From assembly GCA_037349105.1 (NCBI GenBank), contig JAYJMM010000009.1, forward strand, positions 1,612,001 through 1,676,000: a DNA stretch of 64,000 bases. The letters are read 5' to 3'. This stretch comes from Limnomonas spitsbergensis. Lineage: Eukaryota; Chlorophyta; Chlorophyceae; Chlamydomonadales. The notes beneath the pieces were generated by a model. It was not told where the DNA came from and made no database searches. It saw only the letters and a list, made by a program, of their open reading frames with translations. Each line of letters begins with the position of its first letter. The first letter of the stretch is position 1. This document shows positions 3,991-53,416 of this stretch, piece after piece. Position numbers and translations under genes: made by a program.

Positions 3991-6900
3991 CTAGCCCTTG
4001 ATCAGCCCCCTGGCGCGCAGCTGGTCCAGGCCCATGTAGCAGGTCACTACGGACGCAGCCATGAGGTCCATTCCGCTGTCGCTGCTCCCAGTCAGCAGCC
4101 GTTGCAGCTCGCTAACGCTGACTCGCAACACCTCGATTCCCGACTCTTCCGCGTCACGCGTGCCAGGGCTCGGATCCACCTGGCAGCAGGCAGGCAGAGA
4201 TATATTTAGCATTGCTTTTTGATTTGCTGTGCAGAATAGCATTTTCCTAGGAATCATCTTGGCTGATGCACGCAACTTAGAGCCAGGATTCTTCAGTGTC
4301 AAGGGAGCCAAGGTCTGGTTTGGCCTGTCAGCATCAGCATCAGCATCAGCATCGGCATCGGAATGAACATCGGCATCGGCATCAGTATGCCAACTTTGAC
4401 GACAAATGACGTTCAAATTCAAAAAACATCTTGCCTCAGGATCAATGACGAGGTATGGCACGAAGCGGTTGGCGCACCACTTGACCTCTGCAACGCCCGG
4501 GTGACTGTCCGGAATGAGACGTACCCACTCCCCACCACGCAGCAGGGCCTGCAGGGTTCCAAATTTTGAAATTCAAACCAAGCGGGTAGTGCACCATTTG
4601 ACCTCAGCAACTCCGGGATTGCTCTCTGGGATGAGACATACGTACTTCCCACCACGCAACAGAGACTGCGAGGATTCAAAATTCAAAATTCAAACTGTAG
4701 CCGCCCCCAACATCCTGCCAGCCCCCAACCCAGCCCTGCTCCACAAGGGTGGCCAGCCCTTAACCCAGGTATCAGCTCACAGCCCAGCCCACAACCCAGC
4801 CCACAACAAGAACTGCACCACACCTCCTCGGACAGCTCGGCCCGGGCGCACGCTTCCATTGTCGGGGATGAGACGCATCTACTCCCCACCACACAACATA
4901 GACTGCGAGGTTTCAAATTTTGGAATTCAAACTGTAGCTACCCCCTAGCATCCTGCCAGCTCACAACCCAGGACTGCACCACAAGGGTGGCAAGCCCCCA
5001 ATCCAGCTGTCAGCGCACAGCCCAGCTCACAACCCAGCTCACAACCCCTCCTTGCTCCACAAGGGTGGCCAGCCCTCAACCCAGCTGCCAGCTCACAGCC
5101 CAGCTCACAACCCAGCTCACAACCCCTCCTTGCTCCACAAGGGTGGCCAGCCCCCAACCCAGCTGTCAGCGCACAGCCCAGCTCACAACCCAGCTCACAA
5201 CCCCTCCTGGCTCCACAAGGGTGGCCAGCCCCCAACCCAGCTGTCAGCGCACAGCCCAGCTCACAACCCAGCTCACAACCCCTCCTGGCTCCACAAGGGT
5301 GGCCAGCCCTCAACCCAGCTGCCAGGTCACAGCCCAGCTCACAACCCAGCTCACAACCCCTCCTTGCTCCACAAGGGTGGCCAGCCCTCAACCCAGCTGT
5401 CAGCGCACAGCCCAGCTCACAACCCCCAACCCAGCCGCCAGCTCACAGCCCAACTCACAATCCCCAACCCAGCTGCCAGCTCACAGCCCAGTTCGCAACC
5501 CAGCTCACAACCCCTCCTGGCTCCACAAGGTTGGCCAGCCCTCAACCCAGCTGCCAGCTCACAGCCCAGATCGCAACCAAGCTCACAACCCCTCCTGGCT
5601 CCACAAGGTTGGCCAGCCCTCAACCCAGCTGCCAGCTCACAGCCCAGATCGCAACCCAGCTCACAACCCCTCCTGGCTCCACAAGGGTGGCCAGCCCTCA
5701 ACCCAGCTGTCAGCGCACAGCCCAGCTCGCAACCAAGCTCACAACCCCTCCTTGCTCCACAAGGTTGGCCAGCCCTCAACCCAGCTGCCAGCTCACAGCC
5801 CAGATCGCAACCAAGCTCACAACCCCTCCTGGCTCCACAAGGGTGGCCAGCCCTCAACCCAGCTGCCAGCTCACAGCCCAGCTCATAATCCCCAACCCAG
5901 CCGCCAGCTCACAGCCCAGCTCACAACCCCCAACCCAGCCGCCAGCTCACAGCCCAGCTCACAATCCCCAACCCAGCCGCCAGCTCACAGCCCAGCTCAC
6001 AACCCCCAACCCGGCCGCCAGCTCACAGCCCAGCTCACAATCCCCAACCCAGCCGCCAGCTCACAGCCCAGCTCACAATCCCCAACCCAGCCGCCAGCTC
6101 ACAGCCCAACTCACAATCCCCAACCCAGCCGCCAGCTCACAGCCCAACTCACAATCCCCAACCCAGCCGCCAGCTCACAGCCCAGCCCAGAACAAGGACC
6201 CCAGCTGCCAGCTCACAGCCCAACTCACAATCCCCAACCCAGCTGCCAGCTCACATCCCAGCCCAGAACAAGGACCCCAGCTGCCAGCTCACAACCCAGC
6301 TCGCAACCCAGCCCACAACAAGGACTGCACCACACCTCCTCAGACAGCTCAGCCCGGGCGCACGCTTCCATCGTCGCATGCCTCTTCGGCTCATAGCAGC
6401 CGGTGGGCAGACACAGGCCCATGACGTTGGGGCCCTGCATGTACTCGCGAATAAGAGTGATCTGCACAGGTGTGTGATTAAGAGTGATCTGCACAGGTGT
6501 GTGATTAAGAGTGATCTGCACAGGTGTGTGATTAAGAGTGATCTGCACAGGTGTGTGATAAGAGTGGTCTGCACAGGTGTGTGATTAAGAGTGATCTGCA
6601 CATGTGTGTGATTAAGAGTGATCTGCACAGGTGTGTGATTAAGAGTGATCTGCACAGGTGTGTGATAAGAGTGGTCTGCACAGGTGTGTGGATTAGAGTG
6701 ACACGCATGGGGTCACAGGGTAAATTGACCAGCACGGGTGTGTGGACTATCGTGACCTGTATCAGTGTTTATTTTAGTGGGTACTGGACCATCTTTGCTG
6801 GGGCGCCCTGCGGCCACCCCTGGGCCGATTCCCACCAAACCTGGACCGGCCTCCAGGTCCACGGTGGCCCACGCAGCAGGGCTGGCCGAACCAGTAGCTC

Positions 6901-9512
6901 TTCGCCGGGGGTCACAGTGTAGCTGAGCTGTAGCTGATAGTGGTATACCACGCACTAAAATGTAACTGACCTGTATGAATTCATGGATTGCTGCGGCCTG
7001 TCTAGGTTTGTGGATAAAAGTGGCATAAGCAGTTACACATGAGTGGCATATGCAGCTACACATAAGAGTGACGCAAGCAGTTACCCATAAGTGTGACATA
7101 TACAGCTTCGCATGCGAGTGATATATACAGCTTCACACATAAGAGTGATATACAGTACAGTTGCATGGATGAGAGTGGCATGTGTAGATGTAGATATAGG
7201 AGTGACCAGCATGTGTAGCTGTACACATAGGAGTGACCTGCATGTGTAGCTGTACATATAGGAGTAAACTGTGCTAAATGCTTCACATCGCAAGTAGCAT
7301 CGTGCAGGCACAGATTGCCAGCGTGGTCTATTAGATTCCAGTGTGAACAGTGTGGATTCCAGTCTGGGTTCCAGTGTGAACAGTGTGGATTCCAGTCTGG
7401 ATTCCAGTGTGAACAGTGTGGATTCCAGTGTGAACAGTGTGGATTCCAGTCTGGATTCCAGTGTGAACAGTGTGGATTCCAGTCTGGATTCCGGTGGGGA
7501 AAGTGTATATATTTTTCTTACGAGTCCACCTTCGGCAGGCTGCCCTGCCGCCGCCAACGGCCCGGTCGGGATTGAATCTGCGATGGGCAGCCAATTGGCA
7601 TGGCTGGTCATAACTAGGGCCTCCAGCCAGTTGTAGCTGAAATGTAGCTGAGTCACGAAAAAAGATGCGACGAGTTCCGCATTCTTGATTTTTAAGCTAC
7701 TGGGTCCGGGGAATGTCGTTGGTAGCAATCATGGTGCATAGCTTGGGTTCTTTATGGCTCAATTTCAGTTCCCAGTGGAATGGCATCAACAGCCAGGCAT
7801 TCGCCGTTCCGCCACACGTTTCGGTTGAAAAAGCTGACATGTCACTCCCTTAGGTTAACATGTCACACCCTGGTCACACCCTTGGTCAAACTTCTGGCTC
7901 CGAGCCCTCTCTGGACAGATTGAAGGGCATCACCGGTCTGCTGTTCATGATTGGTCACACTTTTGTTGCACAGGTTGGCATGCCACACCTTGGGTCACAC
8001 ATCTGGCCCAAAGCCGTCTTTGGACAGATGGATGGGCATGACCCATGTTCATAATTGTGTCACAGGTTTTGGTTCAGCAGGTTGGCATGCCACACCCCGG
8101 TCACACCTTTGGTCACACCTCTGGCTCCGAGCCGTCTCTGGACGGATGGGAGGGCATGCCCACCGCAAACTGGATCTCAGAGCGGGAGATCCGGTAATCA
8201 TGGCTGAAATGTCACACCCTAGTCACACCCTTGGTCACATGTTTGGTCAGTGACACACCCATGGTCACACCTCTGGCTCCGAGCCGTCTCTGGACGGATG
8301 AAAGGGCATGACCACCGCAAACTTGAACTCAGAACGAGGGTGTCCAACCACATCGTAATGCAGCTCCGTAACCCTCGGGACGGACGGTGCTGACGAGGCA
8401 GAGGGCACCTGGGGGGCAGGTTCCAAGGCCAGGGTCTGATAGGTTTCAGGTTTCAGGGTTAGCACAACCCATCGTAATTCAGCTCCGTAACCCGCGGGGC
8501 AGACAGGCTGACGAGGCAGAGGGCACCTGGGAGGCAGGGTCCAGGGCCAGGGTTGATAAGGTTGCAGGGTTCAAGGTGAGGACAACCTCATCATAATACA
8601 GCTCCGTAACCCTCAGGGATGATGGTGCTGATGGGGTTGAGGTCACCTGGTGGGCAGGGTCCAGGGCCAGGGTTGATAAGGTTGCAGGGTTCAAGGTGAG
8701 GACAACCTCATCATAATACAGCTCCGTAATCCTCAGGGATGATGGTGCTGATGGGGTTGAGGTCACCTGGTGGGCAGGGTCCAGGGCCAGGGTTGATAAG
8801 GTTGCAGGGTTCAAAGTGAGGACAACCTCATCGTAATACAGCTCCGTAACCCTCAGGGATGATGGTGCTGATGGGGTTAAAGGGGAAGGGTAGGATTGCT
8901 CACCAAGGATCACAAAAGCTGCGCCCTAACGGCACAATTGCTCCCCGAAGGATCACAAAAGCTGCGCCCTAAAGGCGGGATTGGTCCCCAAAGGATTACA
9001 AAAGCTGCACCCTCAGAGCGGGATTGCTCCCTGAAGGATCACTAAAGCTGCACCCTAAAGGCGGGATTGGTCCCCAAAGGATTACAAAAGCTGCACCCTC
9101 AGAGCGGGATTGCTCCCCGAAGGATCACAAATGCTGCACCCTCAGAGCGGGATTGCTCCCCGAAGGATCACAAAAGCTGCACGCTTAGGGCGGGATTGCT
9201 TCCCGAAGGATTACAAAAGCTGCACGCTTGGGCGGGATTGCTCCACAAAGGATTACAAAAGCTGCGCGCCCTTAGGGCGCGATTGCTCCCCGAAGGATCA
9301 CAAAAGCTGCGCCCTTAGGGTGGGATTGCTCCCCGAAGGGTTACAAAAGCTGCACCCTTAGGGCGGGATTGCTCCCAGGATTGCTCTCGGAATTGTAGCT
9401 ATATAGTAGCTAAATTGTGGCTATGTTGTATCTGAATTGTGGCTGAATAGTAGCTGAAGCATCCTTAGACTAAAAAGTGTGGGGCTCACCTTTTCTGTTG
9501 AGGGCCCGGCAT
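3991..9512 (-). CDS. Nudix hydrolase, six exons including a 15-base microexon
   Basis: Exons (minus, in order): 9512-9490, 8918-8904, 8373-8271, 6461-6336, 4548-4435, 4179-3991. They join in consistent phase to 570 nt, 189 residues and TAG. Nudix enzymes hydrolyse nucleoside diphosphates linked to another moiety; the C-terminal half (GGEWVRLIP, then EVKWCANRFVPYLVIDPE and PGTRDAEE) suggests an ADP-sugar-pyrophosphatase-like branch, which is inference. The Nudix box spans about residues 68-92: LPTG, then EACARAELSEE, with the metal-binding EExxx core present but R of REUxEE replaced by A. The preceding ITLIREYMQGPN is the usual strand before the box. Exon 1 starts at ATG with MPGPQQK; no targeting peptide is obvious. 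The last intron uses a GC donor (GAG|gcaaga). Three of five introns are filled with copies of their own exon boundaries. The substrate is unknown. Confidence 0.85.
4549..4930 (-). repeat. Rearranged copies of Nudix exon 5 start and exon 4 end
   Basis: Read on the minus strand, 4585-4665 repeats the exon 5 segment GTGGTGGGAAGTACGT... to GAGGTCAAATGGTGC. 4808-4925 fuses a copy of the exon 5 start directly to a copy of the exon 4 end (ATGGAAGCGTGCGCCC to GAGGAG) with its gtgtggtgcag donor. These sit inside intron 4. Confidence 0.7.
4935..6330. repeat. Intron 4 tandem array (22-bp units, longer higher-order units)
   Basis: Words CAGCTCACAACCCAGCTCAC repeat for 1.4 kb with a higher-order 'ctccacaagggtggccagcc' unit of about 75 bp in the first half. 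On the minus strand it starts directly after the exon 4 donor and resembles that intron's first bases (ttgttgtgggctgggttg). The long ORFs here (469, 297 and 278 codons) are by-products of the repeat. Confidence 0.85.
6462..6710 (-). repeat. 27-bp array of Nudix exon 4 acceptor copies
   Basis: On the minus strand each unit reads cacctgtgcag followed by ATCACTCTTA, i.e. the intron 3 acceptor and the first ten bases of exon 4. About nine copies are present. Only the innermost copy continues into the real exon. Confidence 0.85.
6785..6935 (+). mobile_element. Family D SINE-like element
   Basis: It contains ggcgccctgcggccac, gaccggcctccaggtcc and a 'gtgtagctgagctgtagctga' tail. Related copies: 7510-7650, 15940-16110, 34545-34745, 52005-52240 and 54300-54440. 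Here it sits in intron 3 of the Nudix gene. Confidence 0.55.
7000..7290. repeat. Degenerate 'aagagtgacatatacagc' array
   Basis: About ten diverged units of roughly 25 bp with the theme (ata)agagtgac(at)...cagct. It could be a decayed continuation of the acceptor-copy array at 6462-6710, since both carry 'gagtga' and 'cag'. Confidence 0.55.
7335..7655 (-). mobile_element. Family D element with a 33-bp array at its tail
   Basis: 7510-7650 is an inverted family D copy (ttcggcaggctgccctgccg, agccagttgtagctgaaatg). Directly at its 3' end, 7335-7500, lies an array of 'gtgtgaacagtgtggattccagtctggattcca' words. A similar element-plus-array pair is at 34545-35190. Confidence 0.6.
7860..8270 (-). repeat. 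Copies of Nudix exon 3 end and 5' splice site
   Basis: On the minus strand the true boundary reads GTCCAGAGACGGCTCGGAG then CCAGAG|gtgtgacc. Diverged copies are at about 7895-7935, 7990-8045 and 8100-8165, each with 'tcc..agacggctcggagccagag' and a gtgtgacc-like donor. Confidence 0.75.
8374..8903 (-). repeat. 120-bp array of Nudix exon 3 acceptor copies
   Basis: Four copies, beginning at about 8465, 8590, 8708 and 8830. Each contains on the minus strand GGGTTACGGAGCTGTATTA, the start of exon 3, preceded by an AG and followed by gatgaggttgtcctcacc. Copies 2-4 are nearly identical; the one nearest the exon is most diverged. Confidence 0.8.
8919..9375 (-). repeat. 44-bp array of microexon copies
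   Basis: About eleven units; on the minus strand each reads gtgcag followed by CTTTTGTGATCCTTCGGGGAG. Only the terminal unit, the microexon at 8904-8918, reads CTTGgtgagc and so has a usable donor. All others have 'cggggag' at that spot. Confidence 0.85.
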
Positions 9513-9619
9513 CAAACCGAACTTTTCGATCGAATACGGTCAGGTACCTGCATAGCATGAAGTGGGAGGGGTGTGGCCAGGCCTAATCAGGTTCATGCAT
9601 TGCATGCAGCAGAAGGGGA

Positions 9620-12500: not shown

Positions 12501-12554
12501 AGGTGGAACTGATCTATATGATCTCTAACGGTTCTAGTCTGAACCAGATCTCAC

Positions 12555-26800: not shown

Positions 26801-30211
<3,411 letters not shown>

Positions 30212-30394
30212 GATGTCAATCTGGGTACAACAGGCCCCACGGGGCGCAACACCAGGCTTTCTCTTACATGGAGGAAATGGATGAGGCCTTGCCGCGTGGC
30301 CTAAGCCGGGGGACAACCCTGAAAGCATGAGGAGGAGGAGGAGAATGAAATTGCCACGAAAATCACTGCGCATGGCGAGCAAGGAAGGCATAAC

Positions 30395-31275: not shown

Positions 31276-31317
31276 GTCTCGCTGACGTTGACCTGGAACT
31301 GTTTAGCCGCCGCATAT

Positions 31318-32121: not shown

Positions 32122-32334
32122 TCATTTCTGCAGTAGGTCCCTGAGCTCCTGCCGTTGCTCCTCCTCGGAATCATCCTCTACCACGGCCACTTTGATGAAA
32201 GGGGTCGCCATACCATCTAGGCCCGCCGCGGTGTGCACACGCATGCGGGAGAAAGCCCTTTCGAAGCAGGAGGCAAGCTGATCAGCTGACATGCTGAGAT
32301 CCTCCGGCTGAGCTTTCCCATGGGGCTGTGAAGT

Positions 32335-33044: not shown

Positions 33045-34029
33045 ATCTGGATATTGATCTGGATCTACTGGTGCTCCTCCACCTGCTCCCCTTCCTCATG
33101 CACTTCGCCAGCCTGTCCTCCTTGCGCCCTTAAAGCTACCTGGATCTAGATCTGTACCTGGATATCCTGCTGCCCCTCCACCCTCTCCTCTTCGTCATGC
33201 ACTTCAGCTCTCTTTGCCAGCCCGTCCTCCTGGCCTCCTTACATCTGCCTGGATCTAGATCTGTACCTGGATATCCTGCTGCACCTCCACCCTCTCCTCT
33301 TCGTCATGCACTTCAGCTCTCTTTGCCAGCCCGTCCTCCTTGCCTCCTTACATCTGCCTGGATCTAGATCTGTACCTGGATATCCTGCTGCCCCTCCACC
33401 CTCTCCTCTTCGTCATGCACTTCAGCTCTCTTTGCCAGCCCGTCCTCCTTGCCTCCTTACATCTGCCTAGATCTAGATCTGTACCTGGATATCCTGCTGC
33501 ACCTCCGCCCTCTCCTCTTCGTCATGCACTTCAGCTCTCTTTGCCAGCCCGTCCTCCTGGCCTCCTTACATCTGCCTAGATCTAGATCTGTACCTGGATA
33601 TCCTGCTGCACCTCCACCCTCTCCTCTTCGTCATGCATTTCAGCTCTCTTTGCCAGCCCGTCCTCCTTGCCTCCTTACATCTGCCTGGATCTAGATCTGT
33701 ACCTGGATATTCTTCTGCACCTCCGCCCTCTCCTCTTCGTCATGCACTTCAGATCTCATTGCCAGCCCGTCCTTCTTGCCTCCTTACATCTGCCTGGATC
33801 TAGATCTGTACCTGGATATCCTGCTGCCCCTCCACCCTCTCCTCTTTGTCATGCACTTCAGCTCTCTTTGCCAGCCCGTCCTCCTTGCCTCCTTACATCT
33901 GCCTGGATCTAGATCTGTACCTGGATATCCTGCTGCCCCTCCACCCTCTCCTCTTCGTCATGCACTTCAGCTCTCTTTGCCAGCCCGTCCTCCTTGCCTC
34001 CTTACATCTGCCTGGATCTAGATCTGTAC
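33045..34029 (-). repeat. 109-bp array of pseudouridine synthase exon 11 end
   Basis: About nine units. On the minus strand each carries GAAGAGGAGAGGGCGGAGGT, GCAGCAGGATATCCAG|gtac and agatctagatcc, i.e. the last 45-70 bases of exon 11 and what follows. Two more diverged units extend to about 32940. Open frames on the plus strand are by-products. Confidence 0.85.
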
Positions 34030-40000: not shown

Positions 40001-43000
40001 TTAAAGATAACGCTTAGGGTCTAAGGTTTAGGGTAAGGAGTTCAAGGCTTGGGGTCTAGGGTTAACAACGAAGGCTTTGCGACTCGAGGTTATGGTTGAA
40101 GGCCCAATGTCAAGGGTTGAGGGCTTTGGGTCTAGGTCTTATGGCGAAGGGCTCAGGGTTAGCGGCTCAGGGTTTGGGTTCAAAAGCTTAGGTTCAAGGC
40201 TAACAGCTTGGGGTTTGGGGTGAAAAGCTTAGGGTCTAGGGTTTATGACTTCAGGATTACGTTTAAGTGGGAGGCAATCCAGTGGGGAACTTGGGACTGC
40301 ATGCTGCTGGCACTCTATGATAGTCATTTCAAGCATGCCTCATCTACCATTCAGCTTCCATTCAGTAAGCATTCAGCTACCACGCAGCTACCACTCAACT
40401 ACCATTCAACAACCATTCAGTTACCGCTCAGCTACCACTTAGCTACCACACAGCAACCATTCACCTATCACTCAGCAACCATTCAGCTACAACTCATCAA
40501 CCATTCAGCTATCACTCAGCAACCAATCGGCTACAACTCAGCAACCATTCAGCTACCACTGATCAACCATTCAGCTACCATTCAACAACCATTCAGCAAC
40601 CAGTCAGCAACCCTTCAGCTACAACTCAGCAACCAGTCAGCTACCACTCAACTACCACTCAGCAACCATTCAGCTACCATTCAGCAACCACTCATCTACC
40701 ACTCAGCAACCAGTCAGCTACCACTCATGTACCACTCAGCAACCAGTCAGCTACCATTCAGCAACCACTCATCAACCATTCAGCTACCACCCAGCAACCA
40801 CTCAGCAACCATTCAGCTACCACTCATCAACCACTCAGCAACCATTCAGCTACCACTCAGCAACCAGTCAGCTACCACTCATCTACCACTCAGCAACCAT
40901 TCAGCTACCATTCAGCTACCACTCATCTACCACTCAGCAACCAGTCAGCTACCACTCATCTACCACTCAGCAACCATTCAGCTACCATTCAGCAACCATT
41001 CAGCAACCATTCAGCTACCACCCAGCAACCACTCAGCTACCACTCATCAACCATTCAGCAACCATTCAGCCACCACTCAGCAACCATTCAGCCACCACTC
41101 ATCTACCACTCAGCAACCATTCAGCTACCACTGAACAACCATTCAGCAACCATTCAGTTACCATTAAACAACCATTCGGCTACCACTCAGCAACCACTCA
41201 GCAACCATTCACTAACCACTGAGCAACCATTCATCTACCACTCATATACAACTCAGCAACCATTCAGCTACCACTCAGCTACCACTCAGCAATCATTCAG
41301 GAATCACTCAGCAAACATTCAGCTACCACTCAGCTACCATTCAACAACCATTCAGCTACCACTCATCTACCATTCAGCTACCACTCAGCAACCATTCGGC
41401 TACCACTCAGCAACCATTCGGCTACCACTCAGCAACCATTCATCTACACTGCAGCTGAAAGGGGCTGGGATAGTAATCTCTGTCGACCAGACAATGGTAT
41501 GACGACTCTCAATTCCAGTTTCGATTCCTCTTATCACTCGTCTGATTAAGCCTTTCCTGTAGCCCCCCCCGCTATCGATTATAGTAATTCCAGTAATTAT
41601 CTTGCAAACAAATAATCTTACAAACAAACAAACAAACAATCAAAATACCGGTATGAGTGAGTAGCATAGCCGGTACAACTGTTTATTTTCTACCCCTCTT
41701 CGCGACCTAGAACTCTTCTTACATTGATTTCTTTCCACTCATAACTCTCCTATCTCCCATTATAGACCATGATCGGTACCGGAACTTCATTCGCTTGTAT
41801 TATTTTAATTACTCCCGAACTGCGGGAAGGTACATTCGAATTGCCATCCCTCATAATCAAATTTTGTAGAGGGACTGAAAATAATTACCGGTAATGTTGT
41901 TAAGGGGTAAGGGATTCAACCACCCTTGTAACAGCCGCACCTTCCCACAGCTCTCTGACCCTTAACCATAAACCCTAAGTGGCAACCACCCTTGTAACAG
42001 CCGCACCTTCCCACAGCTCTCTGACCCTTAACCATAAACCCTAAGTGGCAACCACCCTTGTAACAGCCGCACCTTCCCACAGCTCTCTGACCCTTAACCA
42101 TAAACCCTAAGTGGCAACCACCCTTGTAACAGCCGCACCTTCCCACAGCTCTCTGACCCTTGACCATAAACCCTAAGTGGCAACCACCCTTGTAACAGCC
42201 GCACCTTCCCACAGCTCTCTGACCCTTAACCATAAACCCTAAGTGGCAACCACCCTTGTAACAGCCGCACCTTCCCACAGCTCTCTGACCCTTAACCATA
42301 AACCCTAAGTGGCAACCACCCTTGTAACAGCCGCACCTTCCCACAGCTCTCTGACCCTTAACCATAAACCCTAAGTGGCAACCACCCTTGTAACAGCCGC
42401 ACCTCCCCACAGCTCTCTGACCCTTAACCATAAACCCTAAGTGGCAACCACCCTTGTAACAGCCGCACCTTCCCACAGCTCTCTGACCCTTAACCATAAA
42501 CCCTAAGTGGCAACCACCCTTGTAACAGCCGCACCTTCCCACAGCTCTCTGACCCTTAACCATAAACCCTAAGTGGCAACCACCCTTGTAACAGCCGCAC
42601 CTTCCCACAGCTCTCTGACCCTTAACCATAAACCCTAAGTGGCAACCACCCTTGTAACAGCCGCACCTTCCCACAGCTCTCTGACCCTTGACCATAAACC
42701 CTAAGTGGCAACCACCCTTGTAACAGCCGCACCTTCCCGCAGCTCTCTGACCCTTAACCATAAACCCTAAGTGGCAACCACCCTTATAGCAGCCACACCT
42801 TCCTGCAGCTCTCTGACCCTTGACCATAAACCCTAAGTGGCAACCACCCTTGTAACAGCCGCACCTTCCCACAGCTCTCTGACCCTTAACCATAAACCCT
42901 AAGTGGCAACCACCCTTGTAACAGCCGCACCTTCCCACAGCTCTCTGACCCTTAATCATAAACCCTGAGTGGCAACCACCCTTGTAACAGCCGCACCTTC

Positions 43001-46000
43001 CCACAGCTCTCTGACCCTTGACCATAAACCCTAAGTGGCAACCACCCTTGTAACAGCCGCACCTTCCCGCAGCTCTCTGACCCTTAACCATAAACCCTAA
43101 GTGGCAACCACCCTTATAGCAGCCACACCTTCCTGCAGCTCTCTGACCCTTGACCATAAACCCTAAGTGGCAACCACCCTTGTAACAGCCGCACCTTCCC
43201 GCAGCTCTCTGACGTGCTTCGCCACCGCCGCCACGCGCCGCCTGGGCGTGTAATTGTGGAACGGGTGTGTTCCAACAAAGGCACCGATGGCCGCCTTGAA
43301 ACGATCCAGGCGCTCCCCGTCCCCCGCGGTCATCCGCCCGTGGCCCGCTCCGAAACCCAGGGCACGCTCCCTCTCCACCAGTCCTTTGTCCACTGCCTTG
43401 CTCTCCGACCGTGGCGGGCCGACGATACCGAGGACGTGCAGGGGCAGGTAGTACTCGTAGGTGCGACCCGTGCAGCCGTGGCGCGCGTTGAATTTCTTTT
43501 GAACGCGCTGCACAGAGAACACCTGCGGGAGAATGGTGCAAGCGATTATCTAGAAACGTACACAGCCATCTTAGCATGCCGAGGACGTGCTGCAGAGGCA
43601 GGTAGCACTCGGAGGTGCGACCTGTGCAGCCGTGGCGCGCGTTGGACTTTTTTCAAACGCGCTGAACAGAAAACACTTGCCGGCAGAAAAGCGTTCGCAA
43701 TTATGTAGAAATGTATACAGACGTGAAGGCCGCAGGTATCTTCCAACAGGGTTTAGGGTTTTAGGGTTTTGGGGGTCAGGGTTTAGGGTCAACTTTTCAG
43801 CTTTTGAAATCAAGGGTTTAGCTTAAAGGCCGAGGTTAAGAGGGATAAAGACATCAACCGATCGGTAGGCAGAAGCTGGTCATTGACTCCGTAGTCCTGA
43901 GCCAGACCATCAAGGCATAAATGCCTACCTCAAAAATACCTAAAACCCTAAACCCTAAACCCTAAACCCTACAAAGGTGTAACACTTAACCCTAACTAGA
44001 GACAGGCCATCAAGGCATCTACGTCTACCTCACAGGGTTAAGGGTTTTAGTTTCAAGGTTCAGAATTCAGAATTGAGGGTTTGGAGTCAAGAGTGGGGAT
44101 TTAGGGTAGAAGTACTCAATTGGACGGTAGGTGGCATTGATTGCTTCAGCCTGAGCCAGGCCATCCTCGTCTACCTCTATGGGGGTTTAGGGTTCAGAGT
44201 TAAGGGTTCAGGCTTTGGATTTGGGGTTTAGGGTCAAGAGTTTTGGATTTAGGGTTTGAGGACGGTATGCGGCAGGTGGTCATTGATTGCTTCAGCCTGA
44301 GCCAGGCCATCATCGTCTACCTGAAAGGGTTTAGGGTTCAGAGTTTTGAGTCAAGGGTTCATTGGGGGGTCATTGACTCTGTAGGCCGGAGCCAGGCCAT
44401 CAAGGCATCAACGTCTACCTAAAATGGCATTTTAGGGTTCAGAGTTTTGGGTTCAGGGTTTCGATTTCGGGTTCAGGGTTAAGTGTTTGGGTTTAGGTTT
44501 AAGGGTTACAAGTTTTGGACATATATACTCCGTTGCACCCACGTCATGTACATGATTGGGGCTTATCTTCTGCACCATGGGAACTCCCCTGCCACACGCA
44601 TGTGGTTGTGAGTTGGTTGCTTGCCCAGGGGGGGCCCTGCTTTTCGCTCGGTGCTCCAGTTTATCTCAATGCTCGTACCGGCTTGCAGGCACATGTCCCA
44701 TGCATCAAATGTGATGCTCTGCTAGACTGTAAAAACACAAAGTCACAAAATCCACAGGATCTAACCTTTAACCCTAAAACCTAGACCTTAAACCCTAAAC
44801 CCTAAACCTTGAACCCTAAACCTTAAACCCTTAATCCCCAGGGTCTGAGGGTTTTAGTCCTCACCCGAATAGTGGGTGCTCGTTGATTGCATCAGCCAGG
44901 CTCAGGCCCTCCGGGTCTTTCTTGTCGGGATTAGGAGCAGGGTCTGAGGGTTTCAGTACTCACCCGAACAGTCGGTGGCAGGTGCTCGTTGATTGCATCA
45001 GCCAGGCTCAGGCCCTCCGGGTCCTCCTCATAGCCGATGTCGCCTTCGGGCATGAGCATTCGGAACCCGACCACCTGCGGCAACCAACCACAGTCTCGGC
45101 GGATTAACGATCATAGCATGACCTGGCATGACCTGGCGTGATCTGGCATGACCTGGCATGACCTGGCGTGACCTGGCATGACCTGGCATGACCTGGCGTG
45201 GCATGACCAATGATTTCCTCTGCTGTACCTGCTGCCACAGGGGGTGTTCAATCCCGAGGGGTTGAGCATGCGGAACCCGACCACCTGCGGCAACCAACCA
45301 AAGACTCAGCGGATGAACGAGCGTGGCATTTCCTTTGACTTATTCAGATTAAGTCTGATTTACTCTGCTGCAGCTTCTGCCCCAGGGGGTCTTAAATCCC
45401 GAGGGGGTGAGCAAGCGGAACTCGACCACCTGCGGGTTAAGGGTTTAGGGTTAACGGCAGATTTAAGGGTTAAGGGTTACGGTAGGGTTTAGGGTTTAGG
45501 GTTTACAAACTAGTGCTTGTGTCAGTGCTGGACAGTTATCATTCAGCAGGCTGGTGCGCCACTGCCACCGGGCCTTAGGTGCCCTGAGGCAATGAACATG
45601 CCGGGCCTGTCCACCTGCAGCACAGGCGCTTGTTCTTATTCCCTAAACCCTTGAGAGAGCGCTGCCGTTGTGTCACATTTAACATGTGGCTGGGCAACCG
45701 ACGCTGGGCCAAATCCTGATAAGTAATTTGATCCTGACAATCCTGACAAATCCTGATAAGTCTAAACTAGGCCGTACGGCAATTAAGATGCTGAGCCTAG
45801 CCACCAGCAGCTCGTGACCCTTGAGAGTGATCTACCATTGTGCCATTATATAATACATTTTATATTTAACATTAAGCATCTAATAGGAGGCTGGGCAACC
45901 GCCAATGGGCCAAACCTTAAACCCTAAACCCTGGTCCAACTGCCACTGGGCCAAACCTTAAACCCTAAACCCTGGTCCAACCGCCACTGGGCCAAACCTT

Positions 46001-49000
46001 AAACCCTAAACCCTGGTCCAACCGCCACTGGGCCAAACCTTAAACCCTAAACCTTGGTCCAACTACCACTGGGCCAAACCTTAAACCCTAAACCCTGGTC
46101 CAACCGCCACTGGGCCAAACCTTAAACCCTAAACCTTGGTCCAACCACCACTGGGCCAAACCTTAAACCCTAAACCCTGGTCCAACCGCCACTGGGCCAA
46201 ACCTTAAACCCTAAACCCTGGTCCAACCGCCACTGGGCCAAACCTTAAACCCTAAACCTTGGTCCAACCACCACTGGGCCAAACCTGAAACCCTAAACCC
46301 TGGTCTAACCGCCACTGTGCCAAACCTAAAAACCTAAACCCTGGTCCAACCGCCACTGAACCAAACCTTAAACCCTAAACCCTGGCCCAGCCACCACTGG
46401 GCCAAACCTTAAACCCTAAACCCTGGTCCAACCACCACTGGGTCAAACCTTAAACCCTGGCCCAACCACCACTGGGCCAAACCTTAAACCCTAAACCCTG
46501 GTCCAACCACCACTGGGCCAAACCTTAAACCCTAAACCCTGGTCCAACCACCACTGGGCCAAACCTTAAACCCTACACCCTGGTCCAACCACCACTGGGC
46601 CAAACCTTAAACCCTGGCCCAACCACCACTGGGCCAAACCTTAAACCCTAAACCCTGGCCCAACCACCACTGGGCCAAACCTTAAACCCTAAACCCTGGT
46701 CCAACCACCACTGGGCCAAACCTTAAACCCTGGCCCAACCACCACTGGGCCAAACCTGAAACCCTAAATCCTGGTCCAACCGCCACTGGGCCAAACCTTA
46801 AACCCTAAACCCTGGTCCAACCACCACTGGGCCAAACCTTAAACCCTACACCCTGGTCCAACCGCCACTGGGCCAAACCCCAATCCTTTCAAGTCCGAAC
46901 TCTTGTATCCTTCCTGTGCAAAACTCTGATGACTTCCAGGCCAGGATGTGATCATAAGTGGGCCAGGATGTGATCATAAGTGGGCCAAGCTCTCATTTTT
47001 ACTATGTGAAACTCTGGCTGTTGTTAGGCTAAACCAGGGGGCTTAACCAGGGGGCTTAACCAGGGGGCTTAACCAGGGGGCTAAACCAGGGGGCTTAACC
47101 AGGGGGCTAAACCAGGGGGCTAAACCAGGGGGCTTAACCAGGGGGCTAAACCAGGGGGCTTAACCAGGGGGCTTAACCAGGGGGCTTAACCAGGGGGCTT
47201 AACCAGGGGGCTAAACCAGGGGGCTTAACCAGGGGGCTTAACCAGGGGGCTTAACCAGGGGGCTAAACCAGGGGGCTTAACCAGGGGGCTTAACCAGGGG
47301 GCTTAACCAGGGGGCTAAACCAGGGGGCTAAACCAGGGGGCTAAACCAGGGGGCTAAACCAGGGGGCTTAACCAGGGGGCTAAACCAGGGGGCTAAACCA
47401 GGGGGCTTAACCAGGGGGCTTAACCAGGGGGCTAAACCAGGGGGCTTAACCAGGGGGCTTAACCAGGGGGCTTAACCAGGGGGCTTAACCAGGGGGCTTA
47501 ACCAGGGGGCTAAACCAGGGGGCTTAACCAGGGGGCTTAACCAGGGGGCTTAACCAGGGGGCTTAACCAGGGGGCTTAACCAGGGGGCTAAACCAGGGGG
47601 CTTAACCAGGGGGCTTAACCAGGGGGCTTAACCAGGGGGCTAAACCAGGGGGCTTAACCAGGGGGCTTAACCAGGGGGCTTAACCAGGGGGCTAAACCAG
47701 GGGGCTTAACCAGGGGGCTTAACCAGGGGGCTTAACCAGGGGGCTAAACCAGGGGGCTTAACCAGGGGGCTTAACCAGGGGGCTAAACCAGGGGGCTTAA
47801 CCAGGGGGCTTAACCAGGGGGCTTAACCAGGGGGCTTAACCAGGGGGCTTAACCAGGGGGTTAACCAGGGGGCTAAACCAGGGGGCTTAACCAGGGGGCT
47901 TAACCAGGTAGCTTTACCAGGGGGCTAAACCAGGGGGCTAAACCAGGGGGCTTAACCAGGGGGCTTAACCAGGGGGCTAAACCAGGGGGCTTAACCAGGG
48001 GGCTTAACCAGGGGGCTTAACCAGGGGGCTTAACCAGGGGGCTTAACCAGGGGGCTTAACCAGGGGGCTAAACCAGGGGGCTTAACCAGGGGGCTTAACC
48101 AGGGGGCTTAACCAGGGGGCTTAACCAGGGGGCTAAACCAGGGGGCTTAACCAGGGGGCTTAACCAGGGGGCTTAACCAGGGGGCTTAACCAGGGGGCTT
48201 AACCAGGGGGCTTAACCAGGGGGCTTAACCAGGGGGCTTAACCAGGGGGCTTAACCAGGGGGCTAAACCAGGGGGCTTAACCAGGGGGCTTAACCAGGGG
48301 GCTTAACCAGGGGGCTAAACCAGGGGGCTTAACCAGGGGGCTTAACCAGGGGGCTTAACCAGGGGGCTTAACCAGGGGGCTTAACCAGGGGGCTTAACCA
48401 GGGGGCTAAACCAGGGGGCTTAACCAGGGGGCTTAACCAGGGGGCTTAACCAGGGGGCTTAACCAGGGGGCTTAACCAGGGGGCTTAACCAGGGGGCTTA
48501 ACCAGGGGGCTTAACCAGGGGGCTTAACCAGGGGGCTAAACCAGGGGGCTTAACCAGGGGGCTAAACCAGGGGGCTTAACCAGGGGGCTTAACCAGGGGG
48601 CTTAACCAGGGGGCTTAACCAGGGGGCTTAACCAGGGGGCTAAACCAGGGGGCTTAACCAGGGGGCTTAACCAGGGGGCTTAACCAGGGGGCTTAACCAG
48701 GGGGCTTAACCAGGGGGCTTAACCAGGGGGCTTAACCAGGGGGCTTAACCAGGGGGCTTAACCAGGGGGCTTAACCAGGGGGCTTAACCAGGGGGCTTAA
48801 CCAGGGGGCTTAACCAGGGGGCTTAACCAGGGGGCTAAACCAGGGGGCTTAACCAGGGGGCTAAACCAGGGGGCTTAACCAGGGGGCTTAACCAGGGGGC
48901 TTAACCAGGGGGCTTAACCAGGGGGCTTAACCATGGCCATTTGATAAAAGTGACTGTGATCATAATGAAGGCACTCTCTCCCTTGCTTACCGTGCATAAC

Positions 49001-52000
49001 GAGTGGACGCCCTTATCTGTTCTGCTGTTCCGCGTCCATTTGACCTACACGGGGGGCAAGGCGCAAATATGTGTGATGTTGAGGGGGGGGGGCAAAAAAA
49101 GTGTTGTCAAGTGGGGGCACAAAATGTGTTATGTGTGTGTGTGGGGGGGGGGGGACAACAAAATGTGTGATGTGTGGGGGGGGGAGGTGTGATGTGTGTG
49201 TGGGGGAGGGGGGGCACCAAAATGTGTGATGTTGGGGGGGGGGGGGCACAGATGTGTGATGCCGGGAGGGATTGTACAAGCATGTGTGATGTTGAGTGGG
49301 GGGAGGGGGGGCAAGACGCAAAAATGTGTGATGGTGAGGGGGGGGGGGCAAAGAGGTATGATGTCAAGGGGGTAGGGGGGGGGGGAACACAAAATGTGTG
49401 GCGTTGAGGAGGGGGGGGCAAAAATGTGTGACGTCAAGGGGGGGGGGGGCACAGAAGGTGTGATGCCGGGAGGGGGGGTAAGTCGCAACAATGTGTGATG
49501 TTGAGGGTGGGTGGGGCAACACGGTGTGATGTAAGGGGGGGGGGGCACAACAAGGTGCGGTGTCGGAAGGGGGGATGAAGGGGCAAGACACAACATGTGT
49601 GATGTCAAGGGAGGGGTGGGTCAAAAATGTGTGATGTCTAAGGGAGGGGGGGCACGCAAAATGTGTGATGTCAAGGGAGGGGGGGCACGCAAAATGTGTG
49701 ATGCCAGGAGGGGGGGAAAGACGCAAGCATGTGTGATGTTGAGGGGTGGGTGGGTCAAAAAGGTGTGATGCCAAAGGGGGGCACACAAATGTGTGATGTT
49801 GAGGGGTGGGTGGGTCAAAAATGTGTGATGCCAAAGGGGGGCACACAAATGTGTGATTTTGCGGGGGGGGGGGCATTTGTGATGTGAGCGTTGAATCTCG
49901 TCCACCAGACCCGCCGAATGGGGGGAGGGACCATGCCTGTGGGTTGTTGGGGACAAGGCGGCGAAAATGTGTTATGTTGGGGGGGGGGGGTAAGACACGG
50001 AAATGTGTGATGTTAGGGGAGGGGATAAGACGCGACATGGTGTGATCTATCCCGCTGCTCCATGTCCATTTGACCTGCTGAGGGGGGTGGGGGGAGGCAC
50101 CATGCGTGTGTGTAATAGGGGACAGGGTGGGGTGGGGTGGGGAGGCGAAAAGGTGTGCCCGCCCAAAGCGGAACGCCGAGTCACCTTGAATAGGTCCCCG
50201 TAGTCGTTAGGGTCGATGGAGCTAGATCGCAGCAGCGCCCACTTAAAGCCCTAAAGCCCACTTAAAGCCCTAAAGCCCTAAAGCCCTAAAGCCCTAAAGC
50301 CCTAAAGCCCTAAAGCCCTAAAGCCCTAAAGCCCTAAAGCCCTAAAGCCCACTTAAAGCCCTCGCCTTAAAGTGTATCCCCTTCCTCCTAATCCTGAATA
50401 CCGTTTCTCCTTCACCTTCAACCCACCCACCCTGAATAGGTACCCGTAGTTGTTAGGGTCAATGAAGCATGTATGAAGCATGTATGAAGCATGTATGAAG
50501 CATGTTGAAAGCATGTATGAACTATGAAGCATGTGTGAAGCATGTATAAAGCATGTATGAAGCATGTGTGAAGCATGTATGAAGGAGCGCCCGGCATCAG
50601 CCCTCAGCCCAAACCTTACACCCTAAGCTCTCCCCCCTACCCCCTCAACCCACCCACCTTCAATATGTCCCCGAAGTTGTTCCGGTCGATGGACCTGCAT
50701 GAAGCAGCGCGCACACCCTTGGCCCTAAACCCTGCACCCTAAACCCACCTTCAGCCCTCGCCTTAAACTCCATCCCCTACCTCCTTCCCCGCAGCCCGCA
50801 GGCCCATACCTCCCACACCCTCAACCCACCCAGTCACCCACCCTGAATAAGTCCTCCCATGAATGATTCCTCATAGTTGATGCAGCCGATGAAGCCAGCT
50901 CTCAGCAGCACCCACCCCAAGCCCTCAGCCCAACCCTTACAGCCTAAGCCCTAAGCTCTCCCCCCTCCCCCCTCCACCCACCCACCTTGAACAGGTCCCC
51001 GTAGTTGTTCGGGTCGATGAAGCCGGCATGAAGCAGCGCACGCTCCAGCACACATTCGATGGTGTCGTCCACAGGTAAATCTCGACAGGCCTGCAAGCCT
51101 GACACCAGTGTCAATGTCAGCAAGATTCAGCTACAATTCAGCTGGAATTTAGCTACATCCCGGCATGATACAGCACACATTCGAAGGTGGCGTTCACTGG
51201 TAAATCTCGACAGGCCTGCAAGCCTGACACCAGTGTCATTGTCAGCAAGATTCAGCTACAATTCAGCTGGAATTTAGCTACATCCCGGCATGAAACAGCA
51301 CACATTCGAAGGTGGCGTTCACTGGTAAATCTCGACAGGCCTGCAAGCCTACCACCAGTGTCAATGTCAGCAAGATTCAGCTACAATTCAGCTAGAATTC
51401 AGCTACATCCCGGCATGAAGCAGCTCCTGCTCCGGCAAGTCTTGGCAGGCCTGCAAGCCTACCACCAGCGTCGATTTTAGCATACATGACATAAAACCCA
51501 GCTGCAGTTTTCTACAATTCAGCCACAGTTCAGCTACTATTCAGCTACATGCAGGCCCGCAGCAGCGCCGGCTCCAGTATACATCCTTAAGCGCCTTCCA
51601 CCGGCAGCTCTGCGCTGCGGCTGTCAGACCACATCGGCACCAGCGCCAAAATTTGGTCCCCTCCCGCTCCCGTGTGAAACAAAATGTAGCCACAATTCAG
51701 CCACAATTCAGCCACAATTCAGCAGCTCCGAACATATTCAGCTGCGATCGAGCGTAACTCAGCTACGACTCAGCCACAATTCAGCCACATCCCGGTCTGC
51801 AGCAGCGCCCGCCCCAGCACACGCTAGGAAGCCTAGTAGACGGCTAGCGCACCAAGCCTCCGAGCCCACCAAGCCTCCGAGCCCACCAAGCCTCCGAGCC
51901 CACCAAGAGCTGCCGGTAAACGCCGCTTACCATCAACTCTTGGTGGTAACAACTTTTGGACTTGCCACACATGTTATATTCTCGGCACACTTCAGCCACA

Positions 52001-53416
52001 TTTCAGCAGGACCTAGGGCCAGGAGCAAGTCTGGAGCAGCAAAGGTGTTAGCTGCTTGGGCCACCAGCCGCAGGCCAGTCCAGATTTGGACCAGATTTTG
52101 CCAGATTTCGATCCATGCTTGGTCCAGATTCGTTCCAATTGGACAGAAGTTCAATTTGCCACACCTGAAGGTGCCCTGGTGTGCAACGAGAGCTCCACAG
52201 CCCGCCACCATCCGAAAATCAAGGAGCAAGTAAGAAGTAAGAACTATACGTAAGGTTTCCGATCCTTCGTGCGTAATATCGAATCGAATCGAAGGAAGCA
52301 ACACGTCTCACATCATAACGGATGCGTCGCTTCTTGACCGGCGAGCACAGGCTCAACAGGGTTTTCAGTGGTTACTGGCGATGAGTCGTAACCAAAGTGG
52401 CGACCAGCGAATTCATTCGGCAAAGCCGAAGGTCAGTAGCGCGGTTACGAAAAACGACGAAATAAGGTAGGATCAGGGAAATTTCGGCGCCTGCGGCGAG
52501 CTCTTCCCCAAGAACTCCCTGCTTCTAGTAACCAACACTAATTCTGAACACAAAAAACCTGAGGCTCACCTCCAGCACACTGCCGGTTGGCTCATAGATG
52601 CTATGCTGCGCCATGCGCATGGCCCATAACAGTCACAAGCCATGCAAAGCCATGCGATAGGCACAAACCACCATGCCATGCCATGCATGATCACAGCGCC
52701 ATGCATCCATGCAGGGCATGTAGCGACCACAAACACAAGCATCTTCTACCTATGACCGCCTCATCAAAAGCTACCAGCCAAACTTTTCCCAATATGCATG
52801 CGGTAAGCTAGCATGCCCTGCCATGCGCGGGTAGGATGCCATGCAGGGCGGCTGCCATGCGCGGGTAGGATGCCATGCAGGGCGGCTGCCCCCGCACATA
52901 CGGTATCCATATACGGTACACGTGAACATTTGTTTTAATGTAACTTACAAATGTCCTTACTATCGAAACCGTCTCGGCATGCTTACATATCCGATGTGCA
53001 TGGTACGATATGACATGGCAGCAGGAGCATGGGCGTTTCCACCCGTACGGCCATACCGAAACAATCTCGAACATACCTTTGAAAGCAGTCCCGACGTATC
53101 CAATGTGCATGGCCGCTGTCCTTTTACAGCCGGGCGCCCTGCCTCGAGTCGACTCATCGGCGTCGTCGTCGTCGCCGGGTCCGACCGCCGGCCCTGCTTG
53201 CGCTGCATCAGCTGCAGTAGAGACGCAGCGAACAGCACGGGCGCGACACGCGGAAGGCGTCGAGTAGCGATCGCTGCGAGTTAAGAGGCGGCAAGTGGAC
53301 GGGACGGAAGGTGGCGCATGCGGCCTAGACACGAGGCAGAGGCTGGGTCCAGCAGCCCTGCTGCCCAATCCTCCACAACCGCCAGCGAAGCAGCTAGAAC
53401 GGCTCGGCAGTATCAT
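34018..53416 (-). CDS. PUS1/TruA-type tRNA pseudouridine synthase in a 19.4-kb gene
   Basis: Exons (minus): 53416-53077, 51098-50986, 49044-48991, 45074-44964, 43522-43195, 39839-39293, 38680-38550, 37665-37610, 36489-36394, 35656-35483, 34263-34018; phases agree at every junction; 731 residues, TAG. These enzymes isomerise uridine to pseudouridine in tRNA. Seen in order: Ser/Arg-rich N-terminus (possible organelle transit peptide, 1-70), KRTAAMHIGYVGTAFKG (98-114), TIECVLERALLHAG, the catalytic loop RTDKGVH with Asp161, VVGFRML (170-176), KKFNARHGCTGRTYEYYLP (215-233), GTHPFHNYTPRRR, an acidic/Gly-rich insert (316-498), HNRTIMSWDVQDP, MEVRGNSFMLHQ|IRHMIGAAVAVSHG (549-574), VPRAPPHSLLLSG, and a charged C-terminus. 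Exon 5 and 6 limits were chosen by phase and donor quality; the end may lie further downstream if GATATCCAG|gtacag is spliced. Introns are mostly arrays of the gene's own exon boundaries. Confidence 0.88.
34264..34480 (-). repeat. Copy of exon 11 acceptor plus 'gttcatggttcagggt' repeats
   Basis: 34321-34393 repeats, on the minus strand, ccccttag followed by ATATTCGATGTTGCTCTCAA, i.e. the start of exon 11 with an intact AG. Telomere-like 'ggttcagggttcagg' words surround it. Confidence 0.75.
34545..35195 (+). mobile_element. Family D element with a 24-bp array at its 3' end
   Basis: 34560-34745 is family D (gactcagctaaatgtcagc, ctttggccaccaattgttgg, ggcggccgcggggcgg). It ends in 'ggtagccgaaaaataaacac', and exactly there an array of about 19 units (AATAAACACTGCCAAAACACCAAA) begins and runs to 35190. 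It lies in intron 10 of the pseudouridine synthase gene. Confidence 0.75.
35442..35483 (-). repeat. 39-base in-frame duplication of the exon 10 donor
   Basis: On the minus strand GGAGGACAAGAGAAGGGGGT...GAGCCAG|gtgagg occurs twice in tandem. Using the second donor instead of the first would add 13 codons (VRGEDKRRGFRSQ) without a stop. Confidence 0.8.
35940..36130. repeat. Degenerate telomere-like TTTAGGG tract
   Basis: 'ggtttagggt', 'ggttcagggttta' and similar words in intron 9. A copy-like 'taccgtaaaacg' pair (36130, 36370) brackets the AT-rich 36180-36380 segment, which holds nothing I can name. Confidence 0.5.
36490..36790 (-). repeat. About 45-bp array upstream of exon 9
   Basis: Seven units of, on the minus strand, ttcctcacacttttcacacatg and tgcctcacacagtc. 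The true junction is ttcctcacactttcag|ATCCGACACATG, so the units look like copies of the acceptor region with the AG lost. At 36805-36830 and 36900-36925 copies of GGAGCTGC(T/G).. GCCGTG(T/C)CCCAC from inside exon 9 also occur. Confidence 0.7.
37666..37800 (-). repeat. Copy of exon 8 acceptor and start
   Basis: On the minus strand 37790-37735 reads cctcccgcccag followed by GTGGCGTCCCCTGCATTAGG and ATGGAGGTTA, matching the start of exon 8 (GTGGCGTCCCTTGTATCAAG) with an intact acceptor. Confidence 0.8.
37805..38520 (-). repeat. Five about 145-bp copies of exon 7
   Basis: Each copy has, on the minus strand, an AG, then CCACCC..CGTCATGGCGCA, then ATGTC(T/C)(T/C)GGGA(C/T)..CAGGA and a donor-like gtgagt/ggtgag. 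The spacer is a run of AATTCGAATTCAAATTC words. The true exon 7 at 38680-38550 is the outermost unit. Confidence 0.8.
39150..39292. repeat. Poly-C tract with 'ctccacccagcccccc' repeats
   Basis: On the minus strand this is a G-rich start of intron 6, made of units like GGGGGCTGGGTGGAG. The exon 6 donor GG|gtgggg at 39293 is itself like one unit. Likely to vary in length and form G-quadruplexes. Confidence 0.75.
39900..40250. repeat. Degenerate telomere-like tract
   Basis: 'gggtttaggt', 'aggtttagggta', 'ggtctagggtt' words throughout, in intron 5 of the pseudouridine synthase gene. Confidence 0.5.
40330..41450. repeat. 11-bp array (CAACCATTCAG / CTACCACTCAG)
   Basis: About 100 units of 11 bp alternating in two or three variant positions. 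The 308-codon plus-strand frame is a by-product. A second simple tract (caaacaaacaaa) follows at 41608-41640. Confidence 0.9.
41920..43194 (-). repeat. 66-bp array: about 19 copies of exon 5 end and its donor
   Basis: On the minus strand each unit is GTCAGAGAGCTGCGGGAAG|gtgcgg, then ctgttacaagggtggttgcc and acttagggtttatggtcaagg. The outermost unit is the real end of exon 5. Because 66 is a multiple of three, an unrelated frame stays open for 553 codons. Confidence 0.92.
43560..43720 (-). repeat. Copy of exon 5 acceptor region
   Basis: On the minus strand 43700-43590 repeats the segment from 'gcgaacgcttttctgccggcaag' through TGTTTTCTGTTCAGCGCG to the GTGCGACCTGTGCAGCCG-type part, i.e. about 100 bases of exon 5 start with substitutions. 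Confidence 0.75.
43735..44963 (-). repeat. Degenerate copies of exon 4 end with telomere-like spacers
   Basis: Minus-strand copies of GGCCTGGCTCAGGC(T/C)GA.GCAATCAA(T/C)GA are at about 44390, 44300, 44160 and 44880-44925 (the last nearly intact with its gtgagg donor). 'Gggtttagggttcaga' words lie between. A family C element is inserted at 44530-44735. Confidence 0.75.
44530..44735 (+). mobile_element. Family C dispersed repeat
   Basis: Contains 'cacccacgtcatgta', 'ggttgcttgcccaggggg', 'catgcatcaaatgtgatgc' and 'ctagactgtaaaaaca'. It lies in intron 4 of the pseudouridine synthase gene on the opposite strand. Confidence 0.65.
45100..45445 (-). repeat. Copies of exon 4 acceptor and start
   Basis: On the minus strand 45295-45240 and 45440-45395 repeat gccgcag followed by GTGGTCGGGTTCCGCATGCT and GTGGTCGAGTTCCGCTTGCT. 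A 'catgacctggcatgacctggcg' run occupies 45116-45205. Confidence 0.8.
45890..46885. repeat. 41-44-bp array with CCTTAAACCCTAAACCCTGG core
   Basis: About 24 units of gggccaaaccttaaaccct followed by aaaccctggtccaaccgccact, with some shortened by deletion of one 'taaaccc'. It has a telomere-like heptamer inside an intron 3 array. Confidence 0.9.
47030..48935. repeat. 13-bp array, about 146 copies, one variable base
   Basis: Units CCAGGGGGCTTAA and CCAGGGGGCTAAA run for 1.9 kb in intron 3. Almost all differences between units are the T/A choice at position 11; rare exceptions lie at about 47850 and 47910. Confidence 0.95.
49060..50000 (-). repeat. G-rich array built from the tract before exon 3
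   Basis: About 25 units of 28-37 bp (plus strand: aaatgtgtgatgttgagggg followed by gggggcacaa). On the minus strand the sequence just before exon 3 (catcacacatatttgcgcct, tgccccccgtgtag) has the same parts, so units look like copies of the pyrimidine tract. At 50052-50072 a copy of cag|GTCAAATGGAC marks the exon start. Confidence 0.8.
50170..50985 (-). repeat. Copies of exon 2 end and donor with simple repeats
   Basis: On the minus strand, TTCATCGACC..AACAACTACGGGGACCTGTTCAAG-like copies end at about 50185, 50432, 50660 and 50845, each followed by gtgggt- or gtgact-like donors. Between them lie 'taaagccc' (50240-50345) and 'gaagcatgtat' (50465-50580) runs. Confidence 0.8.
51099..51560 (-). 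repeat. About 122-bp array of exon 2 acceptor copies
   Basis: Three to four units; on the minus strand each has gacactggtgtcag followed by GCTTGCAGGCCTGTCGAGAT and ends near TTCGAATGTGTGCTG. The units also carry 'tagctgaattgtagctgaatc'. Confidence 0.85.
52005..52240 (+). mobile_element. Family D SINE-like element
   Basis: Contains 'gctgcttgggccaccagccg', 'caggccagtccagatttgg' and 'gttccaattgg'; diverged from the other copies. It is in intron 1 of the pseudouridine synthase gene. Confidence 0.5.
52800..53010 (-). repeat. Copy of exon 1 end and simple duplications
   Basis: On the minus strand 53008-52985 reads ACCATGCACATCGGATATGT, a copy of the MHIGYV codons at the end of exon 1. A 'tgccatgcgcgggtaggatgccatgcagggcggc' unit is doubled at 52815-52890. 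Confidence 0.65.

Follow-up and report, generated by a model that had tools for sequence, protein, structure and literature searches.

Introner elements are dispersed copies of one family, present in many introns. One instance of a tandem duplication that crosses an intron-exon boundary is already known, from the potato RdRp gene, as described in PMC4974935. The same source describes the gain of introns by AGGT tandem duplication (Rogers 1989; Hellsten 2011). Under the model of border-induced selection on intron length (PMC9748784), deletions that cross into an exon are purged, and insertions are thereby favoured near intron borders. In Daphnia pulex, tandem repeats are reported to be densest in introns (PMC3152781). 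In the open-licence literature on tandem repeats, splice junctions and intron growth, boundary-crossing duplication was not found as a main component of introns.

The window analysed here is a stretch of 64,000 nucleotides (C9:1612001-1676000) from the Limnomonas spitsbergensis genome (260,226,709 bases in 124 contigs). At each exon edge, an 80-mer made of 40 bp of exon and 40 bp of intron was compared with the rest of its own intron, and a match was counted if it spanned the junction by at least 8 bp on each side at E<=1e-4. The initial annotation had claimed that at least 15 boundaries repeat their exon edge, and the count bears this out: 16 of 40 tested window edges have significant copies, with exon and splice site together, in the intron next to them, from 1 up to 19 per positive edge (the latter at the donor at 43195, with a 66-bp unit). 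In the first set of window edges, 11 of 26 match (TruA 6/8, Nudix 5/8, Tim13 0/2, E2 0/8). Another 11 edges were then examined, of which 53076 had already been in the first set. Those with copies are 43194 (19), 16646 (2), 34263 (1), 2615 (3) and 62848 (1), the exons at the last three being placed by eye from splice sites and an open frame, without homology. No spanning copies were found by the same test at edges 36489, 36393, 62767, 53076 and 9547. Local repeats make up 46% of the window; an RNA family scan and a tRNA scan of it gave no matches.

One example is the TruA/PUS1-like gene (36394..53125, minus strand; exons 53125-53077, 51098-50986, 49044-48991, 45074-44964, 43522-43195 and 36489-36394), modelled by spliced alignment to homologues, with exon 36489-36394 based on a single homologue alignment only and the donor at 43195 set by eye. 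Its partial protein has no Pfam match and was assigned as TruA-like by protein search. On the minus strand, a 125-bp array with 3 copies spans the acceptor at 51098 (51046..51510), and the end of exon 51098-50986 with its donor recurs at offsets 328, 555 and 801 (50160..50990). The acceptor and start of exon 49044-48991 have a copy at offset 1030 (50041..50085, ends approximate), and those of exon 45074-44964 have copies at 45258..45435. A 106-bp repeat with an exon overhang of 65 bp spans the donor at 44964 (44839..45028). Exon 43522-43195 is flanked by a copy of its acceptor and 98 bp of its sequence, the AG being lost in the copy (43576..43720), and by the 66-bp array of 19 copies that spans its donor (41917..43213). 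Some arrays do not cross an edge: the one at 36493-36770 abuts its acceptor, the junction being spanned by no copy, and a 13-bp array inside an intron (47027..48933, minus strand) stays short of the exon and is a purely intronic example. A 109-bp array (33103..34065, minus strand) adjoins a presumed exon at about 34263-34041. Nine of its copies cover edge 34041; the splice site there cannot be placed and the edge was left out of the 16. The predicted proteins P0015 and P0017, from other contigs, contain the same TruA exon, and P0015 runs on past the donor into sequence similar to the exon once more (HAGFIA), perhaps a copy of this type in a relative.

The Nudix, Tim13 and E2 gene models were built from splice sites and reading frame. 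The Nudix-like gene (3991..9546, minus strand; exons 9546-9490, 8408-8271, 6461-6336, 4548-4435 and 4179-3991) has 5 modelled exons and a single open frame through all of them to the stop; its NUDIX match (PF00293) lies just under the Pfam cut-off (19.7 vs 21.1 bits, E=0.00089). A 120-bp array with 3 copies and an exon overhang of 64 bp spans its acceptor at 8408 (8345..8878), and the end of the same exon with its donor lies together with 3 copies at 7841..8336. The acceptor and first ~13 bp of exon 6461-6336 are repeated in a 27-bp array of 7-8 copies (6451..6701), and the end of that exon with its donor has a distant copy at offset 1512 (4764..4864). Two copies of the acceptor and start of exon 4548-4435 lie at 4577..4932, all of these on the minus strand. 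The last intron of the gene is of the GC-AG type (window 4435). Another GC-AG intron, 2212 bp long, is found in C92, where an array repeats the GC donor itself in 9 spanning copies, GC being shown in 4 of them.

The Tim13-like exons 15805-15866 and 16559-16646 (15805..16646, plus strand) join in frame across their intron, and the protein is above the Pfam cut-off for Tim10/DDP (PF02953, E=2.7e-15). This gene had also been named as a carrier of edge copies, which holds for the donor at 16646, spanned by 2 copies of a 141-bp repeat (16612..17042, plus strand), and not for the donor at 15866, which narrowly misses the threshold (E=2.3e-4). Copies were also found at the lone exons that had been pointed out near 2616 and 62768. 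The acceptor of the first is spanned by 3 copies of a 115-bp repeat (2326..2615, plus strand), and the second has 1 copy (97% identical) spanning its acceptor at 62848 (62848..63055, minus strand, end approximate) and none at 62767. The E2 gene (27409..30212, plus strand), whose protein is above the cut-off for UQ_con, and the SPIRAL1 gene were said to lack such copies, and they do: 0/8 and 0/4 edges, respectively.

Comparison genes were picked without regard to repeats ("blind" genes). They are chaperonins (PF00118; 20 stretches representing 15 loci; junctions could be placed in 12 loci, for 35 of the 55 exon pairs) and proteasome subunits (PF00227; 14 stretches or loci, with junctions fixed for 9 of 17 exon pairs, 2 of the 9 with weak splice scores). 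Exon pairs with a profile gap of more than 14 positions or without a frame-consistent splice pair were dropped (chaperonin 20/55, proteasome 8/17), as were 4 edges with less than 60 bp of target intron; six proteasome stretches were chosen partly for wide gaps between exon matches. The sample comprises 57 introns of genes chosen for conservation, and the P values given here assume independent families. Introns shorter than 300 bp were left out of the profile and interior tests, and those shorter than 200 bp out of the unit-start test. The first Nudix acceptor is 19 bp off in the interior-point, offset, unit-start, identity-class and shuffle/cross-gene tests; the junction, profile, family and decay tests use the corrected position, which gives 47 projected copies, not 48, and a divergence ratio of 1.91, not 2.07. 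The best relative of a CCT-theta protein of this genome, 68% identical, is that of Chlamydomonas eustigma, a species placed in the same clade as L. spitsbergensis (PMC11228838).

Spanning copies occur at 11 of the 84 chaperonin and proteasome edges (9/66 and 2/18), with more than 50 copies at one chaperonin donor. Across all 110 edges of the window and blind genes, 22 match their own intron, compared with 0/110 when these introns are dinucleotide-shuffled and 0/220 edge queries in length-matched introns of other genes. A comparison with shuffled and size-matched introns had been proposed by the initial annotation, which also held that one process had acted many times and that no single repeat family was involved; the lack of cross-gene matches and the varied unit lengths agree with that view. 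At the 22 edges, the duplicated unit runs from within the exon across the splice site into the intron. Edge copies are confirmed as a real feature of this genome, present in unrelated genes.

Head-to-tail copies of short units are seen with Tandem Repeats Finder. Sixty single-event clusters have offsets of 43-461 bp (median 113), and 27 of them are strictly adjacent, with units much below 30 bp escaping the method. In the 44 introns of the chaperonin and proteasome genes, 36% of bases lie in local repeats. The modelled introns of the chaperonin genes C61 and C4 have no local repeats (0/5 and 0/4), and other genes carry them in the majority of their introns. Repeat-bearing introns are longer than repeat-free ones (median 692 vs 321 bp in 33 and 24 introns, P=6e-6). 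When the repeats are collapsed, the 33 repeat-bearing introns still have a median of 570 bp, as against 321 bp in the 24 others, so the repeats account for only part of the extra length; long introns also give repeats more room. The published mean intron length of L. spitsbergensis is 788 bp (PMC11228838), which can be compared only roughly with the median intron lengths of six core-Reinhardtinia algae, Chlamydomonas reinhardtii among them, which range from 198 to 343 bp. The repeat section of the genome paper lists simple repeats at <0.01% and satellites at 0.10%, and arrays of the present kind are unmentioned in the parts of that paper drawn on here (PMC11228838).

Some other sequences were noted along the way. 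A short motif, 'ggcgcccacgcggccgagcc...cagggcccagaggtgtaacgtcattgac', seen by eye on both strands, looks like a dispersed repeat family and occurs in the window at about 550-1000, 3400-3740, 18780-19080, 26080-26150, 31640-31700, 55400-55460 and 57260-57420. Fragments of reverse-transcriptase-like frames (by eye) lie in intergenic parts of the window at 19700-20700, 31300-32300 and 55900-56500. Degenerate telomere-like TTTAGGG/AAACCCT runs (by eye) are present in intron-like sequence at 43740-44520 and 62120-62600. Only 3 partial matches to plastid rbcL were found, pieces in nuclear contigs at C39:3753401-3753843 and C37:3691650-3691748; the longer piece has a shifted frame.

We consider it likely that frequent local tandem duplication lengthens these introns, and that units straddling an exon edge leave inert copies of the edge, which decay. 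Short segments would be duplicated in tandem, locally and often, and the introns would lengthen. The duplication need not recognise the splice junction, and the copying machinery would presumably be slippage or break repair. Where a duplicated unit crosses the edge of an exon, splicing at the exon-proximal site would still give the same mRNA; such a duplication would therefore be neutral, unlike a duplication inside an exon or a deletion crossing the edge. The homology- and frame-based gene models use the exon-proximal site, and protein homology suggests that it is the site in use. In this way the intron would acquire an inert duplicate of the exon's edge; further duplication may copy it once more before it decays. 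In a sense, intron borders would tolerate duplications but not deletions, and the edge copies would be the trace left there.

The divergence of the copies can be compared with this expectation. In the decay test, only exon sequences served as queries, so that the splice site could not bias detection, and 47 copies at 25 edges were projected on the junction. Their identity is 0.827 in the exon part and 0.670 at intron positions 3-10, and the ratio of intron to exon divergence is 1.91 over all of them, 2.15 if each edge contributes a single copy and 2.42 in the blind genes. A ratio of about 2 is what drift is expected to give: the real exon is constant and its copy drifts, and in the intron both drift. 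The copies look neither kept nor purged, as neutral and inert debris would. Because the exon part drifts only in the copy and the intron part in both, edge copies should remain detectable for roughly double the time that interior copies do.

A rather less probable alternative is that duplication is linked to the junction or to transcription: breaks near splice sites, or switching of the polymerase there (R-loops, splicing-coupled stalling), would make exon edges hot spots. The initial annotation had thought of a mechanism of this type, and the data divide over it. Counted by points, edges are about as frequently matched as the interior of the same introns: 22 of 86 edges have copies, with 17.8 expected (one-sided). 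In the window the figures are 11 of 22 edges, with 8.5 (one-sided) to 11.3 (either side) expected from interior points; in the chaperonins 9 of 46, with 7.2 to 9.9 expected; and in the proteasome genes 2 of 18, with 2.2 expected (one-sided). Of 202 points inside chaperonin exons, 7 have copies. Repeat coverage has no peak at the junction either. In the 43 introns of at least 300 bp, it is 0.35 at the junction and 0.33-0.44 over the first 280 bp of intron, rising up to 0.5-0.6 past 290 bp, where only longer introns contribute. Into the exon, it is 0.35 at 10 bp, 0.31 at 30, 0.14 at 60 and 0.015 at 100. By edge side, coverage is 0.26-0.29 for donors and 0.42-0.43 for acceptors, compared with 0.37 in the interior (paired test, P=0.61-0.64). 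Centring of unit boundaries on splice sites, which the initial annotation had proposed to test, is not supported: 44 of 46 outermost unit starts lie between -100 (exon) and +60 (intron), a range picked post hoc, and are evenly spread there (P=0.30). Such starts are scarce from 60 to 150 bp into the intron (2/46).

Counted by families, however, edges are in excess over what uniform placement predicts. Twenty-four of 50 repeat families span a junction, whereas uniform placement gives 12-15 and a model with a shorter ancestral intron 11-14, and the excess is present in every identity class. It is seen in the genes of the initial annotation (10/22, with 4-5 expected) and in the blind genes (14/28, with 9-11 expected; P 0.03-0.09, or 0.03-0.14 with a wider overhang cap). 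The longer detectability of edge copies explains part of this. With detectability doubled, the blind expectation rises to 13-14 of 28, which the 14 spanning families fit (P 0.43-0.60), and that for all families to 20 of 50, as against 24 (P 0.13). What it leaves over is the number of families that reach into the exon, 20 of 28 in the blind genes (P 0.004-0.007 even with doubled detectability) and 30 of 50 in all (P 0.001-0.002). Other points on the same side are that local repeats are denser in gene spans (0.288) than outside (0.121; P=0.0499, 14 loci) and that stop-codon edges have no copies (0/10, ten being too few to tell). Finally, the chaperonin paralogues C39/C99, C36/C119 and C84/C114 have exon alignments of 82-92% (76% in one long mixed block) and are diverged gene pairs, perhaps from an old large-scale duplication. 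In the alignments, copies at two homologous edges of C39 and C99 have different offsets, as if these edges had been struck twice, which suggests separate events. The exon-reaching excess, with detectability allowed for, slightly lowers our preference for the simple reading and slightly raises the standing of the junction-linked one. Duplication aimed at splice junctions is possible, not established, and the simpler, junction-blind reading is ahead. We regard as still more doubtful the far-reaching version, in which introns grow by transcription- or splicing-coupled duplication preferring exon-intron junctions, each intron being a fossil record of its own edges, with thousands of competing duplicated splice sites (extrapolated from the sample).

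It is very unlikely that selection maintains the copies as functional alternative splice sites or regulators of splicing. Intact splice dinucleotides are found in 37 of the 47 copies, and likewise in 14 of 22 copies with a barely matching intron flank. However, drift of the copy alone would leave 33.2 of the 47 intact (P=0.14), the remainder of the copy is free to drift, and unit length and number vary between edges. A signal of decoy splice sites under selection, namely a site identity of 0.83 and 0.90 as against about 0.6 in the neighbouring intron, disappeared when constraint on the real site was taken into account. An origin of the copies from spliced RNA was also considered, as some matches end at the junction, and is not supported: only 2 of 57 spliced-junction queries matched nearby, and both matches are donor-side copies, the donor resembling the start of the next exon.

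We give hardly any credence to an assembly artefact, that is, false local expansion by noisy long reads. The assembly was built on PacBio continuous long reads (PMC11228838) and some arrays are near-uniform, with 66-bp units up to 100% identical, but most other copies differ by 5-30%, the effect is found in many contigs and genes, and from the alignments one copy-plus-exon block is apparently common to the paralogues C39 and C99. In addition, a read coverage of 63x is reported, and both types of read are said to have been used in polishing (PMC11228838). Least credible of all is the Rogers model, in which duplication of an exonic AGGT segment creates an intron and the arrays would be newborn introns; the tandem copies do include exon ends and splice sites, but at the TruA edges homologous proteins align with no pieces inserted, the copies are located within a single intron, and 26 of 50 families span no exon edge.

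Frequent local tandem duplication would provide a concrete and testable route for intron lengthening without transposons. The arrays also amount to a large set of natural experiments: similar splice sites, lying at different distances from the same exon, are in competition, and exon definition can be tested directly. As with introner elements, many introns are shaped by a repeated process; the difference, already drawn by the initial annotation, is that the copies here do not belong to one family, since 0/220 edge queries match in the introns of other genes. Daphnia pulex differs in that short units dominate, and the words 'splice' and 'exon-intron' are absent from the text of PMC3152781. The border-induced selection model is alike in the purging at borders; it treats indels in general, and 'tandem' is absent from its main text (PMC9748784). 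With AGGT intron gain, as described in PMC4974935, the present case shares a local tandem duplication that supplies duplicate splice sites, and it differs in that no new intron is seen and existing introns seem to grow. A close parallel is the potato RdRp gene, in which the unit likewise holds part of an exon, a splice site and part of an intron. That case, as described, was one event that gave a new intron and inserted exon sequence, whereas in L. spitsbergensis the copies appear silent within one intron and recur at many edges and in many genes.
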